A DNA stretch of 64,000 bases. Origin: Sideroxydans sp. (GTDB taxonomy: Bacteria; Pseudomonadota; Gammaproteobacteria; Burkholderiales; Gallionellaceae). The position numbers and the translations under genes are program-made. Below are positions 22,658-44,461 of the stretch, one piece after another (positions within the stretch are counted from its first letter, which is position 1; every line of letters begins with the position of its first letter). Below the pieces are notes generated by a model that was not told where the DNA came from, did no database searches, and worked only from the letters and a program-made list of their open reading frames with translations. The stretch lies in assembly GCA_027310725.1 (NCBI GenBank), contig DAIDAG010000080.1, positions 1 through 64,000 of the forward strand, written 5' to 3'.

Positions 22658-22684
22658 TAAAGTTTTCAAAATTCCCGCCGATAC
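22658..22684 (+). promoter_or_regulatory. Sigma28 (FliA)-type promoter upstream of flhDC
   Basis: TAAAGTTT - TCAAAATTCCC (11 nt) - GCCGATAC matches the FliA consensus TAAAGTTT-N11-GCCGATAA at 15 of 16 positions. It is on the + strand, about 210 bp before the flhD ATG, and points towards a hairpin/T-tract at 22737-22776. The 313-bp interval 22581-22893 has no convincing protein gene. Confidence 0.75.
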
Positions 22685-22691
22685 ATCAACA

Positions 22692-22770
22692 GTACGAGCA
22701 ATTGCGTCCCCTCGCGAAGCTTGGTACACAAAATCACCTCTATTGGTCTTGGCCATATAGGGGTTTTTCT
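22692..22770 (+). ncRNA. Candidate FliA-dependent small RNA or attenuated leader ahead of flhDC
   Basis: Transcription from the sigma28 promoter should begin near 22692 and meet a terminator-like hairpin ending at 22763, predicting an RNA of about 75-80 nt. There is no ATG in this stretch and no credible small ORF. The exact start and function are unknown; it could be a free small RNA or the attenuated 5' part of an flhDC transcript. Confidence 0.45.
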
Positions 22771-22776
22771 GCTTTT
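22737..22776 (+). terminator. Terminator-like hairpin inside the flhDC upstream region
   Basis: CCTCTATTGG pairs with CCA-T-ATAGGGG (ten pairs including one G-T, one bulged T, loop TCTTGG) and is followed by TTTTTCTGCTTTTTT. Just downstream GTAGG-N7-CCTAC (22779-22795) is a second small palindrome that could be an operator. Confidence 0.6.
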
Positions 22777-22893
22777 TTGTAGGCCATATTCCTACAGGAT
22801 AATCGGAAGTCGTCGGATATTTCACTTGGATTTTCTCCCCGAGAATGCAACCGTCGTAACAAGACATCACACTGTTTAAGCGAGGGGACTGCT

Positions 22894-23214
22894 ATGAACA
22901 CGAATCAATTGCATGAAGAAATCAAGGAAACCAATCTCTCTTATATGCTGTTGGCCCAGCAAATGATACGCGACGACAAGGCCAGCGCGATTTTCCGTCT
23001 CGGGGTGAGCGAAGAGCTGGCAGACCTGATCGTCGGGCTTTCTTCGGCTCAGATGCTCAAAATGGCCGCGTCGAACATGTTGCTGTGCCGTTTCCGTTTC
23101 GACGAGCGCTTGCTGCTGAATATGGTCACCGATTACAACAAGGACAGGATGATGTCGCAGGCGCATGCCGCTATCCTGATGTCAGGGCAGCCCGCCGAAG
23201 CTTTGGTTCTCTGA
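22894..23214 (+). CDS. flhD: Flagellar transcriptional activator FlhD
   Basis: FlhD of 106 residues: NTNQLHEEIKETNLSYMLLAQQMI at the N-terminus and the FRLGVSEELADLI helix region are typical. With FlhC it forms the hetero-hexameric D4C2 complex that activates class II flagellar operons through sigma70 RNA polymerase. It starts at ATG 22894 after GAGGGGAC. flhC follows 17 bp after the stop codon. The upstream region contains a sigma28-type promoter and a hairpin, suggesting that FliA feeds back on this locus (inference). Confidence 0.96.
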   Translation: MNTNQLHEEIKETNLSYMLLAQQMIRDDKASAIFRLGVSEELADLIVGLSSAQMLKMAASNMLLCRFRFDERLLLNMVTDYNKDRMMSQAHAAILMSGQPAEALVL

Positions 23215-23231: not shown

Positions 23232-23774
23232 ATGCGAAACAAGAGCGTAGTGAACGAAGCCCGCGAGATACAGATATCGGTCGATCTTATCGAATTGGGG
23301 GCGCGCCTCCAGTTGCTGCAAGAAGAAACGGGGCTGAGCCGGGAGCGCCTGTTGAGACTTTACAAAGAGGTCAAGGGGGAATCGCCTTCCAAGGGTATGC
23401 TGCCGTACTCGACGGACTGGTTCATGAGCTGGTTGCCCAATATCCATTCCTCTTTATTCATGGGCATCCATCAGTATCTGCTGAAGAATGCCAGTGTTTC
23501 CGGCGTCGAGGCTTTGATCAAGAGTTACCGTTTGTACCTCGAGCAGGTGGCGGTCACCACGGGAGAGCAGGTGCTGAGCATCACGCGCGCGTGGTTCCTG
23601 ATTCGTTTTTTCGAGGCCAAAATGCTGCAACTGACGGAATGCAAAGAGTGTGGCGGTCATTTCGTCGTGCACACCAACGAGCTTTGCGAGAGCTACAACT
23701 GCGGCATTTGCCGTCCGCCTTCACGCGCGGGGAAAACGAAAAAAGCCGCACAAGGCGAAGCTGCAGTCGCCTAA
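23232..23774 (+). CDS. flhC: Flagellar transcriptional activator FlhC
   Basis: ATG 23232 gives 180 residues; the longer ORF from 23085 overlaps flhD out of frame and is rejected. The four cysteines of the FlhC zinc site are visible (CKECGGHF and CESYNCGIC), together with the conserved SWLPNIHSSLF and FFEAKMLQLTEC. FlhC supplies most DNA contacts in the FlhD4C2 activator. The TAA stop codon (23772-23774) is at the same time the beginning of a sigma28 -35 element for motAB. Confidence 0.96.
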   Translation: MRNKSVVNEAREIQISVDLIELGARLQLLQEETGLSRERLLRLYKEVKGESPSKGMLPYSTDWFMSWLPNIHSSLFMGIHQYLLKNASVSGVEALIKSYRLYLEQVAVTTGEQVLSITRAWFLIRFFEAKMLQLTECKECGGHFVVHTNELCESYNCGICRPPSRAGKTKKAAQGEAAVA

Positions 23775-23798
23775 AGTTATCACATCAAGCGCCGCTAC
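23772..23798 (+). promoter_or_regulatory. Sigma28-type promoter of motAB, overlapping the flhC stop codon
   Basis: TAAAGTTA - TCACATCAAGC (11 nt) - GCCGCTAC fits the FliA consensus with three mismatches. The first three bases are the flhC stop codon TAA. It lies about 165 bp before the motA ATG. Confidence 0.65.
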
Positions 23799-23962: not shown

Positions 23963-24817
23963 ATGCTGGTGATTGTTGGGTATTTAGTGGTTTTGGGTTC
24001 CGTGTTCGGCGGTTTTGCCTTGGCCGGCGGACATCTGGCCGCATTATTGCAGCCGTTGGAGCTGCTGATGATTGCGGGGGGGGCGGGCGGCGCCTTCTTC
24101 GTTGGCAATAGCATGAAGGCAATCAAGGCGACATTTAAAGATCTGCCCACAATTTTCAAAGGCTCCAAGTACAACAAAGAGAGTTACATGGAGCTGATGG
24201 CGCTGATGTACGAATTGCTCGGCAAAGTGCGCAAAGAAGGCCTGATGTCCATAGAAGGCGACGTCGAGAATCCGCAAGAGAGCCCCGTGTTCGCCAAATA
24301 TCCAAAGATACTTGCAGACCATCATGTGGTCGAATTCATGACCGATTACCTGCGCATCATGGTCAGCGGCAATCTTAATGCAATGGAGATCGAGAATCTG
24401 ATGGATGTGGAGATCGAGACGCATCACCACGAGGCGATGGTGTCATCGCACGTGATCGCCAAGGTGGGCGACGGCATGCCGGCGTTCGGTATCGTTGCAG
24501 CGGTGATGGGCGTGGTACACACCATGGAGTCGGTGGGCATTCCGCCGGCCGAGTTGGGCATGCTGATCGCGCACGCGCTGGTGGGAACCTTCCTCGGGAT
24601 TTTGCTGGCCTATGGTTTCGTCGGTCCGTTGGCCGGCCTGCTGGAGCAAAAAGCCGAAGAGGGCAGCAAGATGTTGCAGGCCATCAAGGTCGTCCTGCTG
24701 GCCAACCTGAACGGCTACGCACCCGCAATGGCAGTGGAATTCGGCCGCAAGGCGCTCAATTCGACCGAGCGCCCCGGTTTCATCGAACTGGAAGCGCACG
24801 TCAAACAAAAACGTTAG
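23963..24817 (+). CDS. motA: Flagellar stator protein MotA
   Basis: ATG 23963 after AGGGAGC gives 284 residues, the normal MotA length; the longer ORF includes leader sequence. Four TM segments are visible (LVIVGYLVVLGSVFGGFALAGG, the LELLMIAGGAGGAFFVG region, and the pair FGIVAAVMGVVHTM and LLAYGFVGPLAGLLE). The cytoplasmic loop carries charged residues that contact FliG. With MotB it forms the ion-driven torque unit. A sigma28-type promoter upstream makes it a late flagellar gene, co-transcribed with motB 33 bp later. Confidence 0.96.
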   Translation: MLVIVGYLVVLGSVFGGFALAGGHLAALLQPLELLMIAGGAGGAFFVGNSMKAIKATFKDLPTIFKGSKYNKESYMELMALMYELLGKVRKEGLMSIEGDVENPQESPVFAKYPKILADHHVVEFMTDYLRIMVSGNLNAMEIENLMDVEIETHHHEAMVSSHVIAKVGDGMPAFGIVAAVMGVVHTMESVGIPPAELGMLIAHALVGTFLGILLAYGFVGPLAGLLEQKAEEGSKMLQAIKVVLLANLNGYAPAMAVEFGRKALNSTERPGFIELEAHVKQKR

Positions 24818-24850: not shown

Positions 24851-25888
24851 ATGGCAAACGAAGACAAAAGACCCATCGTCATCAAGCGCATCAAAAAGGT
24901 GGTGGGCGGCGCGCACGGCGGGGCATGGAAGATCGCGTATGCCGACTTTGTGACGGCGATGATGGCGTTCTTCCTGCTGATGTGGCTGCTGGGTTCGACA
25001 ACCAAAGGCGATCTCAACGGTATCTCGGAGTACTTCAAAACACCTCTGAAAGTGGCATTGATGGGCGGCACGGGAAGCGGCGACAGTTCCAGCATCATCA
25101 AGGGGGGCGGGCAGGATCTCACGCGCAGCGAGGGCCAGGTCAAATCGGGCGAGTTGCCGCCGGAAAAAAAGATCATCAACCTCAAGGCGACCCGGGAGGA
25201 ATTTCTGCGCCTGGAGCGTAAAAAGGAACTTGAAAAACTCAAGGACCTGAAAGCCAACCTTGAAAAAATGATCGACGCGGATGCCAAATTGAAGAAATTC
25301 AAGGATCAGATATTGCTGGACCTGACCTCGGAAGGTCTGCGCGTTCAGATTGTGGACGAAAAGAACCGCCCCATGTTCAAGAGCGGCAGCGCCGAGCTGG
25401 AGCCTTACACCAAGGATATCCTGCGTTCGATCGGTAATGTACTGAACGAAATGCCGAACAAGGTCAGCCTGTCCGGGCATACCGATGCACAGCCGTATGT
25501 AACTGCGGACGGGCGTTACAGCAATTGGGAGCTGTCGGCTGATCGGGGCAATGCCTCCCGCCGTGAACTGATCAAAGGCGGTCTGGCCGATGACAAGATC
25601 GTGCGCGTGGTCGGCCTGTCGTCGGCTGTGCTATTTGATAAAACACAGCCACTCAACCCCATCAATCGCCGGATCAGCATCATCGTGATGAACAAAAAAG
25701 CAGAAGAAGCGGCCCTGAAAGACGGCGGCAGCGTAGATATCGATGCCGAAACCGGGGATCCACTCGATACGTTGCAACCAGATGCGGCATCCGGTGTGAC
25801 AAGCGGCGCCTCGGCGCCAGCGGCTGCGGCCGCTCCTGGGTTGCCGGAACCAGTCGCAAATCCAGGCCAGCCGTCTGCTCTGCATTAA
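24851..25888 (+). CDS. motB: Flagellar stator protein MotB
   Basis: A single N-terminal TM helix contains WKIAYADFVTAMMAFFLLMWLL with the ion-binding Asp conserved in MotB. A charged periplasmic linker (about 85-155) leads to an OmpA-like peptidoglycan-binding domain (about 160-285) with LSGHTDAQPY and NRRISI. The C-terminal 55 residues are an Ala/Pro-rich tail. It anchors the MotA4B2-type stator to the cell wall (current structures suggest MotA5B2). Its TAA stop doubles as the -35 of the sigma28 promoter for the first MCP. Confidence 0.96.
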   Translation: MANEDKRPIVIKRIKKVVGGAHGGAWKIAYADFVTAMMAFFLLMWLLGSTTKGDLNGISEYFKTPLKVALMGGTGSGDSSSIIKGGGQDLTRSEGQVKSGELPPEKKIINLKATREEFLRLERKKELEKLKDLKANLEKMIDADAKLKKFKDQILLDLTSEGLRVQIVDEKNRPMFKSGSAELEPYTKDILRSIGNVLNEMPNKVSLSGHTDAQPYVTADGRYSNWELSADRGNASRRELIKGGLADDKIVRVVGLSSAVLFDKTQPLNPINRRISIIVMNKKAEEAALKDGGSVDIDAETGDPLDTLQPDAASGVTSGASAPAAAAAPGLPEPVANPGQPSALH

Positions 25889-25912
25889 AGAATAATAACC
25901 TTATGCCGCTAT
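25886..25912 (+). promoter_or_regulatory. Sigma28-type promoter of the first MCP, overlapping the motB stop codon
   Basis: TAAAGAAT - AATAACCTTAT (11 nt) - GCCGCTAT. The -35 core TAAAG and GCCG are intact and spacing is exact, with four mismatches in total. It begins with the motB stop codon and lies 47 bp before the MCP start codon. AAATAGGGCATG directly downstream (25915-25926) recurs in the flgA-flgB intergenic region. Confidence 0.6.
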
Positions 25913-25958: not shown

Positions 25959-27584
25959 ATGAATAAGTGGTGGAGCGGACTTTCACTAAAGAACAAGTTG
26001 CAGATTCCTATACAGCTTGTCCTGATAGTCGTTCTGACGATGGTGCAAATGACCGCATTGGACAGGTTCGAGGCGCATGTGCTGGAAGGCGCGCGCGAAA
26101 AGGCGGTCGTTTCGGCGGACGGGGTAATCAACGGACTCAACTTGTTGATGCTCAACGGCATTATCAGCCAGGAAGACCAGCGAACCCTGCTGGTTAAAAA
26201 AATGGGCGCTTCCGAACATGTGCTGGAGCTGCGTGTCATCCGCAACAAGCCGGTGCAGGATCAATTCGGCCCGGGCATGCCGTCCGAGCAGCCGGCAGAC
26301 GATCTGGATCGGCTGGCGCTTTCTTCCGCAAAACAACAGAAAGAGTTGCTGGAAAAGAACGGTGTGCGAGCCTTGCGCGTGGTCGTCCCTTTCATCGCCA
26401 GTAAAGAGTTTCGGGGTACGAACTGCCTGATGTGCCATACGGTGCCGGAAGGCACGGTGAATGGTGCGGCCAGTATCACACTTGATATCAGCGACGAATA
26501 TGCCGTCGTAAGGCGTGCCAACTTGACGCTATGGGGAGCGCAGTTCGTTCTGCAAATCGCCTTGTATTTCATCATCGGCTGGCTGATCGGTCTGGTGACC
26601 AAGCCCGCAAAGGAATTGCAGAAAGCCATGCAGACCATGCAGAAGGATGGAGACCTCTCGAAACGTGTTGCGGTGCGCAGTGAGGATGAGATCGGCCAGA
26701 CGTCCCAGGCTTTCAATGACCTTGCCAACGGTTTCCATGTGATCGTCACCCAGGTGGACGGTCATGCCCATCAGGTTGCGGACGCCGCCCGCTCGCTTGC
26801 GCATGACGCGGAACAACTTGCGCAGAGCATGCAACGGCAAAGCGATGCGGCAGAGTCGACATCCAGGGCGGTGGAACAAGTCAGCGCCAGCATCGCCCAA
26901 GTTGCGGAAGGCACCGACCAAGTGGCCAGGCTTTCAAACGACAGCCTGGAGCGCGCCAACCGGGGGCAGCAAAGTCTGCAGGAGATGATGCAGGAACTGG
27001 GGCGTGTGGAAAGTTCGGTGCAGGAGATCGCAATCGACGTCGGCAAGTTTGTCAACAACACCCAGAGCATCACCGATATGACGCAGCAAGTGCGCGAGAT
27101 CGCGGAACAGACCAATCTGCTGGCACTGAATGCGGCGATCGAGGCGGCACGGGCTGGCGAGCAAGGCCGCGGCTTCGCCGTGGTCGCCGATGAGGTGCGC
27201 AAGCTGGCGGAGAAATCAGCGCAATCCGCGATGCAGATCGATGAAGTCACCCAGGCTCTTGGCGTGCAGTCGGGGCAGGTCGAAAAGACCGTGCAGCGTG
27301 GGCTGGCTGCTTTGCAGGGCAGCCAGGCGCACATCAGGGAGGTTACGGCCGTTCTGGTCGAAGCCAATGCGTCCGTGGACGGTGTGAATCGCGGCCTGGA
27401 GAACATTTCCGTATCGATCAACAAGCAGCGTGATGCCAGTCAGGAGATCACGCGCAACGTCGACCGGATCGCCAATATGGCCAGCAGCAGCAACGAAGTG
27501 GTCAAGCGTACCGTCAATGCCGTGAAGTCGATGGAAGAGCTGGCTGCAAATTTGAACAGGACCATCGGGCGTTTCAAGGTTTGA
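25959..27584 (+). CDS. Methyl-accepting chemotaxis protein with periplasmic c-heme motif (1)
   Basis: It has TM1 near residues 12-30, a periplasmic sensor (about 31-190), TM2 (about 192-212), HAMP, then a signalling domain with the hairpin core [26 protein letters not shown]. The sensor contains [17 protein letters not shown], where CXXCH (Cys near 156) would bind heme c covalently once exported. This resembles the c-heme sensor domains known from Geobacter chemoreceptors. The ligand could be redox potential, O2, NO or CO (inference). There is no C-terminal CheR-tethering pentapeptide. MCP2 is 62% or more alike by eye in the N-terminal part, suggesting tandem duplication. A sigma28-type promoter precedes it. 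Confidence 0.93.
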
Positions 27585-42784: not shown

Positions 42785-43721
42785 CATGCCCCCACCTCAA
42801 TCCTCCCCCAGCGGGAGAGGAGGCAAACGAGAGGGACAATCTTATATCCCTGACCAAGCTGCCGGGTTGCGCCGCCTGCTGGCGCGCTCCAGTTCGCGCG
42901 TGGTGACGGTGGTCGGCGCGCGCGACGGATTGGGGGCAACCAGTATCGTCGTGAATCTGGCGGCAGTGCTGGGAAATTCTGGCAAGGATGTGCTGGTGCT
43001 GGACGAGAACCTGTCGCAGGATAATGTGGCGAACACGCTGGCACTCAAGGCGCGTTTCGATTTATTGCATGTGGTGCACGGCGACAAGACGTTGCAGGAT
43101 GTGATTGTTCAGGGTTCACAGGGCGTTCATGTATTGCCCGTGGCGAGGGCGATACAGGGCTTGCCGAAGCTGGGCGAGAGCCAGCGCGAGCGATTGCTGG
43201 AGGCGCTGAGTGCCGCAGCGAAAGATGCGGACGTGGTGCTGGTGGATGCGGCGCGTGCCGGGCATTCGTTCTGTGCCAGCCTGTCCGGCGACGAGCCCTT
43301 GCTGCTGGTATTGAACGCCACCGCCAGCGGCATCACGGAAAGTTATGCGCTGCTCAAACAGATGGCGATGCATAATGGCAGACAGGCATTCGATATCGTG
43401 GTCAACAAGGTGGGCAGCGAACGCGAAGCGCTGGCGATATTCGACAATATGGCACAGGTCGCGAGCCGGCACCTGCAAGTGCATCTTGAGTACCTGGGAC
43501 ATATTCCAGTTGATGAAAAGCTCAAACGTGCGACACAATTGGGCCGTCCGGTGACCGAGGTCTTCCCGGCGGCACAGTCGTCCTACGCAATGCGCGAGAT
43601 CGCACAAGGTTTGCTGCGCGCGCCGGCGGTGTCGGATGAAGGGCATGATGTGCTGGGCAGCGTGGTGCAACGCTTGATGCGCCAATCGCGTCCGGTAAAC
43701 AATACAATGGCGATCACATGA
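42774..43721 (+). CDS. flhG: FlhG/FleN-like MinD-family ATPase with degenerate Walker A
   Basis: It overlaps the flhF 3' end by 11 bases (ATG 42774; ATG 42786 is an alternative). Residues about 5-23 are encoded by a palindromic C/G-rich element and are unlike the family. The MinD/ParA fold starts at about residue 40: VVTVVGARDGLGATSIVVNLA, then VLVLDENLSQDN. The deviant Walker A (GLGATS) lacks the usual lysines of GKGGVGKT, so ATP-dependent dimerisation may be weak or altered. FlhG normally opposes FlhF to limit flagellar number. fliA starts inside its stop codon (ATGA). Confidence 0.85.
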   Translation: MRSDMPPPQSSPSGRGGKREGQSYIPDQAAGLRRLLARSSSRVVTVVGARDGLGATSIVVNLAAVLGNSGKDVLVLDENLSQDNVANTLALKARFDLLHVVHGDKTLQDVIVQGSQGVHVLPVARAIQGLPKLGESQRERLLEALSAAAKDADVVLVDAARAGHSFCASLSGDEPLLLVLNATASGITESYALLKQMAMHNGRQAFDIVVNKVGSEREALAIFDNMAQVASRHLQVHLEYLGHIPVDEKLKRATQLGRPVTEVFPAAQSSYAMREIAQGLLRAPAVSDEGHDVLGSVVQRLMRQSRPVNNTMAIT

Positions 43722-44461
43722 ATATCGCCGGCAATCTTAAGACGAAGGCTATGTACACGCCGAATGGACTGAGCGACAAGGAAGAATGCCTGAAGGAGTA
43801 TGCGCCTTTGGTGAAGCGCATCGCCCATCACATGATGCTCAAATTGCCCGGCAGCGTCGAAGTGGATGACCTCATCCAGGCCGGGATGATGGGGCTGCTC
43901 GATGCCGCCAGCCGTTATGACGAGTTGCGCGGCGCGATGTTCGAGACTTACGCCGCGCAACGCATACGCGGTGCGATGCTGGATGAGCTGCGCGGCGCCG
44001 ACTGGCTGCCGCGTAGCCTTCGCCGCGATATGCGCCGCATCGAAGCGGCCATCAGCCGCCTGCAGCAGAAGCTGGGCAAGGCACCGAGCGAGTCCGAGAT
44101 TGCCAAAGAGTTGGGCGTGACTTTGCCGGAATACCAGCAGATGTTGCAGGAAGGGCGCGGCGCCCAACTGCTCTATTATGAAGATTTTCACGGCGAGGGA
44201 GAGGAGGATTTCTTCGAGCGATTCGAGTTCTCGACCGATTCCAACCCGCTGGAACTGCTGCAGGACGGGCGTTTCCGCGAGGCGCTCGTTCAGGCCATAG
44301 AGCGATTGCCGGAGCGCGAACGCATGATGATGGGCATGCACTACGAGCAGGACATGAACCTGCGCGAGATCGGCGAAGTGATGGGCGTCTCCGAATCGCG
44401 CGTGTGCCAGCTGCATAGCCAGGCCGTGGCGCGCCTGCGTACGTCGATGAAGGGCCATTGA
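43718..44461 (+). CDS. fliA: Flagellar sigma factor FliA (sigma28)
   Basis: 247 residues if started at ATG 43718 (overlapping flhG); ATG 43751 (MYTPNG) matches the family start better and has GACGAAGG upstream. Sigma regions are recognisable: region 2 with YAPLVKRIAHHMM, DDLIQAGMMGLLDA and YAAQRIRGAMLDELR; region 3; region 4 with LPERERMMMGMHYEQDMNLREIGEVMGVSESRVCQLHSQ (helix-turn-helix, -35 contacts). It reads the TAAAGTTT-N11-GCCGATAA promoters listed here. It is inhibited by FlgM, encoded at 48891-49205, until the hook is complete. Confidence 0.97.
   Translation: MNIAGNLKTKAMYTPNGLSDKEECLKEYAPLVKRIAHHMMLKLPGSVEVDDLIQAGMMGLLDAASRYDELRGAMFETYAAQRIRGAMLDELRGADWLPRSLRRDMRRIEAAISRLQQKLGKAPSESEIAKELGVTLPEYQQMLQEGRGAQLLYYEDFHGEGEEDFFERFEFSTDSNPLELLQDGRFREALVQAIERLPERERMMMGMHYEQDMNLREIGEVMGVSESRVCQLHSQAVARLRTSMKGH

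Follow-up and report, generated by a model that had tools for sequence, protein, structure and literature searches.

The flhDC operon of the window, by which we mean the whole 64,000-nt stretch of DNA analysed here, is preceded by a FliA (sigma28) promoter and a conserved, covarying RNA structure that bears a conserved complement to the flhD Shine-Dalgarno (SD) sequence, and this arrangement is present family-wide in the Gallionellaceae. These features are shown, and the conserved RNA element itself is well supported. We consider it likely, with a probability of roughly 0.75, that the element encodes a small RNA dependent on sigma28, which by pairing with the ribosome-binding site of flhD represses the synthesis of FlhDC. 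The original prediction, made before any comparison with other genomes, was of a small RNA that depends on FliA and could exert feedback on flhDC; conservation and complementarity support it, and transcription, FliA dependence and repression, along with termination and the use of Hfq, are inferred only in the absence of transcript data.

The FliA promoter and the predicted RNA upstream of flhD

The window belongs to a Gallionellaceae genome, whose closest named relatives are Sideroxydans and Sideroxyarcus MAGs. The coordinates of the features discussed below are collected in Table 1. A FliA box scoring 15/16 on the + strand at 22658 had been proposed by the original prediction, and this claim held upon rescoring against the 16-position consensus TAAAGTTT-N11-GCCGATAA. 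The exact sequence TAAAGTTTN11GCCGATA occurs at only two sites in the 3.03 Mb genome, one preceding flhD and the other preceding flgK, and the box score never exceeded 12 in ten single-strand shuffles of the window. As the remaining high-scoring boxes in the window stand 5' of flgK, an FlgM-like open reading frame (ORF) and motA, the FliA consensus is valid in this DNA. The fliA gene, whose product should recognise this promoter, lies in the same 64,000-nt window as flhD.

Table 1. Features of the flhDC upstream region and associated genes, with the basis for each assignment
Feature	Position	Strand	Basis
FliA (sigma28) promoter, TAAAGTTT-N11-GCCGATAC	22658..22684	+	15/16 against consensus
Stem-loop 1: outer stem GUAC.., inner stem UUGCG/CGCGA, loop UCCCCU (22707-22712)	22692..22727	+	single-sequence fold; covariation in helices 1 and 2
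Anti-SD seed GUCCCCUCGC (DNA GTCCCCTCGC), loop and 3' arm of stem-loop 1	22706..22715	+	10-nt perfect inverted repeat with 22880-22889
Stem-loop 2, terminator-like hairpin, 12 pairs, one bulge	22736..22764	+	fold; helix 3, pair-keeping double changes in 9/11 pairs
T-rich tail TTTTCTGCTTTTTT, predicted RNA 3' end	22765..22778	+	sequence; tail comparison
Putative flhDC promoter and operator: TGTAGG-N7-CCTACA palindrome, ATCGGAA..TCGGAT, AGAATGCAACCGTCG	22778..22860	+	conserved in relatives; core promoter inferred; separate from the small RNA
flhD SD GCGAGGGGAC, predicted seed target	22880..22889	+	sequence; matches anti-SD between lineages
flhD, predicted target gene	22894..23214	+	PF05247, E = 2.2e-44
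flhC, second gene of the regulated operon	23232..23774	+	PF05280, E = 9.8e-87
fliA, sigma factor expected to read the pre-flhD promoter	43718..44461	+	TIGR02479 above cut-off; sigma-70 regions 2, 3 and 4

Transcription is predicted to start at approximately 22690-22692, downstream of the box, and to yield an RNA of ~80-87 nt (~22691 to ~22778) that comprises two stem-loops and a T-rich tail and ends ahead of flhD, in place of the 75-80 nt originally proposed. The 10-bp stem with one bulge and a T-rich tail, said to lie 52 bp after the box, also held, with the stem being slightly longer than claimed (12 pairs including G-U, one bulged U) and starting 51 bp past the box. A simple terminator scan of the window did not flag this hairpin, probably because of the bulge.

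Searches of Rfam returned no family match in the window, and the sole hit in this interval was at chance level and below threshold. When searched against its own genome, a covariance model of the element recovered one good copy (E = 1.2e-17), with the next best hit at E = 1.2. A 90-aa ORF that spans the interval on the minus strand was rejected as a protein gene, having no Pfam hit and a frame that is not kept open in the aligned relatives, in keeping with the earlier claim that no protein gene explains the interval.

The feature that proved to be key, and that the original prediction overlooked, is the complementarity of stem-loop 1 to the flhD leader, where the seed forms a 10-nt perfect complement to the SD; the check for such complementarity that had been suggested was thus positive. 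In the fold of the short RNA, the UCCCCU portion of the seed constitutes the loop. Amongst the 137 start regions in the window, that of flhD has the longest exact complement to the RNA, and of 3000 shuffled RNAs, 8 had a complement of 10 nt. The length of the contiguous complement served here in place of a duplex-energy ranking over the genes of the window, which was discarded because GC-rich sites dominated it and flhD was absent from it. A caveat to our reading is that part of the complementarity is to be expected, since any SD is G-rich.

Conservation and co-variation within the Gallionellaceae

In an alignment of 17 members of the window's genus, the FliA -35 element is invariant at 8/8 columns in 17/17 members, and 11 of the 12 columns of the anti-SD region (22704-22715) are likewise invariant; upstream of the box, the corresponding figure is 0 of 117 columns, with a mean identity of 0.45. 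The stems flanking the anti-SD have almost no invariant columns but continue to pair: across both stem-loops, pairing is kept in 92% of cells, and double changes are found in 17 of 24 pairs. There are 58 double-changed cells, where shuffles gave 19.9 +/- 3.9 and slid controls 5-10. Stems that vary while still pairing, combined with a fixed seed, are the signature of a functional RNA whose seed is constrained in sequence.

Conservation of promoter and hairpin in relatives, the other check put forward with the original prediction, was positive beyond the genus, with both kept across the family and with strong covariation. A FliA box scoring at least 13/16 is found in 55 of 90 Gallionellaceae flhD loci, 227-300 bases before flhD, and the recurring layout consists of the box, ~20-25 nt, a CCCCU(C/U)G stem-loop, a second stem-loop and then the flhDC promoter region. 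Stem-loop 1 has 30 double-changed cells across genera, versus 12.1 +/- 3.3. The family-wide model, R2, comprises stem-loop 1 only because stem-loop 2 aligns poorly across genera. The U-tail that follows stem-loop 2 is good in the window's genus (g1), acceptable in a Gallionella-like genus and poor in genus g8, such that termination is not equally likely everywhere.

Seed and target also appear to change together. Under strict matching, the SD variant CGAGGGG goes with CCCCUCG (19 loci) and CAAGGGG with CCCCUUG (18 loci), with none crossed; under looser matching, the anti-SD fits the SD type (UCG with CGA, UUG with CAA) in 42 of 45 loci, the mismatched ones being L087, L088 and L094. The summed pairing energy of each RNA with its own SD was -1157 kcal/mol, as opposed to -1026 +/- 21 kcal/mol when partners were swapped, and none of 20000 permutations was as strong, a comparison that is uncorrected for phylogeny. 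Mapped onto a tree, there are three changes of SD type and two of the anti-SD; of three independent pairs, one or two agree and none shows the reverse. As the co-change rests on two or three independent changes, we regard it as suggestive and not proven. The exact complement between seed and SD extends to 12 nt in L027, L056 and L065 and to 15 nt in L033, and longer or shifted complements at single loci, such as those of L033 and L065, lend the co-change additional support.

Departures from the common layout occur in both directions. Two box-bearing loci (L053 and L067) have lost the C-rich seed, and four loci without a FliA box (L031, L035, L037 and L039) retain the anti-SD complement. In three of the latter (L035, L037 and L039), a sigma70-like promoter, TTTGANA-N15/16-TACAAT, replaces the FliA box at approximately -270 to -190 from flhD and the anti-SD hairpin is kept, which may represent a promoter swap. 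Tandem FliA boxes with two seeds were observed upstream of flhD in L025, L027, L033, L044 and L056, where the upstream copy often lacks stem-loop 2. An AGGGG SD is kept in several box-less Gallionella-type loci. A link between loss of the box and loss of the AGGGG SD, which looked strong by eye, was unsupported on the tree and was not used.

We found no convincing copy of the element outside the Gallionellaceae among 399 genomes of the order (model R2) and 369 of the class (model R1), noting that the strict filters could miss a diverged relative. Hits of the models outside the family were rejected, as all had chance-level E-values except one at 4.7e-5, and there was neither flhD nor a FliA box nearby. 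In other families of the order that were sampled, FliA-like boxes lie 5' of flhD in L100, L104, L107 and L110, with no anti-SD hairpin seen. Several such boxes each are present in L104 and L110. L100 and L107, which belong to another family of the order, contain a 17-bp perfect inverted repeat (GCCGATACAGTGTTTGT/ACAAACACTGTATCGGC) at approximately -166 to -125 from flhD that overlaps a FliA-like -10, with two more FliA-like boxes upstream.

Proposed mechanism and rival explanations

In the mechanism that we favour, FlhDC would activate fliA, and FliA, active late in flagellum assembly, would transcribe the small RNA from the promoter upstream of flhD. Stem-loop 1 is predicted to expose UCCCCU in its loop, and the loop and 3' arm would pair with the SD of the flhD mRNA, block ribosome binding and lower FlhDC synthesis, closing a negative loop from FlhDC through FliA and the small RNA back to flhD. 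A separate promoter downstream of the hairpin probably drives flhDC, in which case the small RNA would act in trans even though it is encoded next door. Hfq may assist in the pairing, by inference: among 34 genomes from the genus, 31 encode the protein, making such help possible, and no hfq was found in the 65%-complete genome that carries the window. A bolder form of this reading, which we also hold to be likely, is that a FliA-made RNA beside flhDC co-evolves with the flhD SD throughout the family as a direct negative loop from the end of the cascade to its start, and that some lineages have duplicated, lost or re-promoted the RNA.

The region between hairpin and flhD bears on whether the RNA is separate from the flhDC transcript. 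Its elements (the palindrome, ATCGGAA..TCGGAT and AATGCAACCGTCG) are kept in relatives that have neither FliA box nor anti-SD, and identity across the promoter/operator region is 0.85-0.89 in the genus. We infer that this conservation in the absence of box and seed fits flhDC having its own promoter there, and a terminator-like hairpin placed before a conserved flhDC promoter region makes a separate short RNA the simpler reading. The palindrome and ATCGGAA..TCGGAT at 22778-22822 are conserved upstream of flhD across the Gallionellaceae, even where the small RNA is missing, and by inference this stretch is likely the operator of some regulator of flhDC.

The rival that survives best is a cis-acting leader, in which transcription from the FliA promoter continues past the hairpin and the anti-SD, lying close to the 5' end, pairs with the SD of the same molecule, leaving the FliA-driven flhDC mRNA silent or conditionally open. 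In its favour, a fold of the 231-nt leader pairs the anti-SD with the SD (z = -2.9), the distance from anti-SD to flhD is nearly constant (-188 to -199 in most non-Gallionella loci), and the U-tail is poor in g8. Against it, a conserved terminator-like hairpin intervenes, with a U-rich tail in two clades; the conserved promoter/operator after the hairpin persists without the RNA; and an operon promoter that yields only silenced mRNA would require a further switch. We consider this explanation unlikely, albeit not excluded. Since the full leader can fold the seed onto the SD, any read-through RNA would be self-silenced, and the predicted sign, whether in cis or in trans, is repression of flhD.

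Two further alternatives appear very unlikely. The first is a broad anti-SD RNA whose C-rich loop either binds a wide range of G-rich ribosome-binding sites or serves as a sponge, flhD being one target amongst others. UCCCCU loops are indeed able to pair with many SDs, and the complement is retained in the box-less loci L031, L035, L037 and L039. However, the complement takes in flhD-specific bases (GCG or GCA before AGGGG) and follows their changes, the RNA always adjoins flhD, and the genome contains just four CGAGGGGA-N3-9-ATG sites. The second is a positive feedback promoter, whereby FliA does no more than drive flhDC, the hairpin being incidental or the terminator of the upstream gene. 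The FliA box is oriented towards flhD, and terminator relics are present in some box-less Gallionella-type loci (L076 and L078), but this explanation leaves unaccounted for the invariant anti-SD, the covarying stem-loop 1 and the placement of a hairpin between promoter and gene. A chance arrangement without function, which has nothing of weight in its favour, is all but excluded by the conservation and covariation seen in many genomes.

Relation to known flagellar small RNAs

The sigma28-dependent small RNAs of E. coli are UhpU, MotR, FliX and FlgO, which derive from UTRs and are reported to be conserved among some of the Enterobacteriaceae; MotR and FliX base-pair within coding sequences, and UhpU acts on lrhA, an indirect positive route to flhDC (PMC10578931). 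The Gallionellaceae RNA resembles them in its predicted FliA control, its tie to flagellar genes and its predicted regulation of flagellum synthesis. It differs in lying in the intergenic region upstream of flhD and in its predicted pairing with the flhD SD in a direct negative loop, and the sections of PMC10578931 that bear on this point attribute pairing with the flhD SD to none of the E. coli sigma28 small RNAs. Judged by position only, without alignment, homology to these four RNAs is not supported, as the RNA described here is intergenic, outside the UTRs of uhpT and the flagellar genes concerned.

The flhDC mRNA is itself targeted by ArcZ, OmrA, OmrB, OxyS and McaS and by the antisense RNA AsflhD (PMC10578931), so that control of this mRNA by base pairing, mostly repressive, is a shared feature. 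These RNAs answer to other regulators, and most have their genes at other loci. AsflhD runs antisense to flhD; the Gallionellaceae RNA, in contrast, lies on the same strand, upstream. In Campylobacter jejuni, FlmR (CJnc170) is FliA-dependent, and FlmE (CJnc230) is RpoN-dependent, contains an anti-SD motif and represses flgM and cfiR (PMC11187230). These are likewise flagellar small RNAs that share FliA dependence (FlmR) or an anti-SD motif (FlmE) with our prediction; however, Campylobacter has no FlhDC, and the targets and sequences differ.

Neither this RNA nor any small RNA in Gallionellaceae flagellar control turned up in our search of the open literature, which leaves subscription journals mostly uncovered. 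The direct feedback layout is thus not described in the literature examined, while flagellar sigma28 small RNAs are already known as a general kind. Little is understood of how cells turn flagellar synthesis down once the class III genes are on, and the known feedback proteins and small RNAs act indirectly or answer other signals. If our reading is correct, the last sigma factor of the cascade would exert a built-in brake on the master regulator, in environmentally important iron oxidisers whose regulatory biology is little known. The idea lends itself to direct testing through the natural variation in the family, which includes SD/anti-SD variants, tandem copies, loss of the RNA and what may be a promoter swap.

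Two other FliA-like sites were observed downstream of flhD. A 13/16 box at 23772-23798 (+) starts on the flhC stop codon, ~165 nt before motA, a Pfam-confirmed gene that begins at 23963 downstream of flhC; its layout is like that of the E. coli motR/motA promoter, and it could yield a MotR-like leader RNA. A weak FliA-like site with three mismatches lies at 25886-25911 (+), 48 bases 5' of a methyl-accepting chemotaxis-type gene at 25959.
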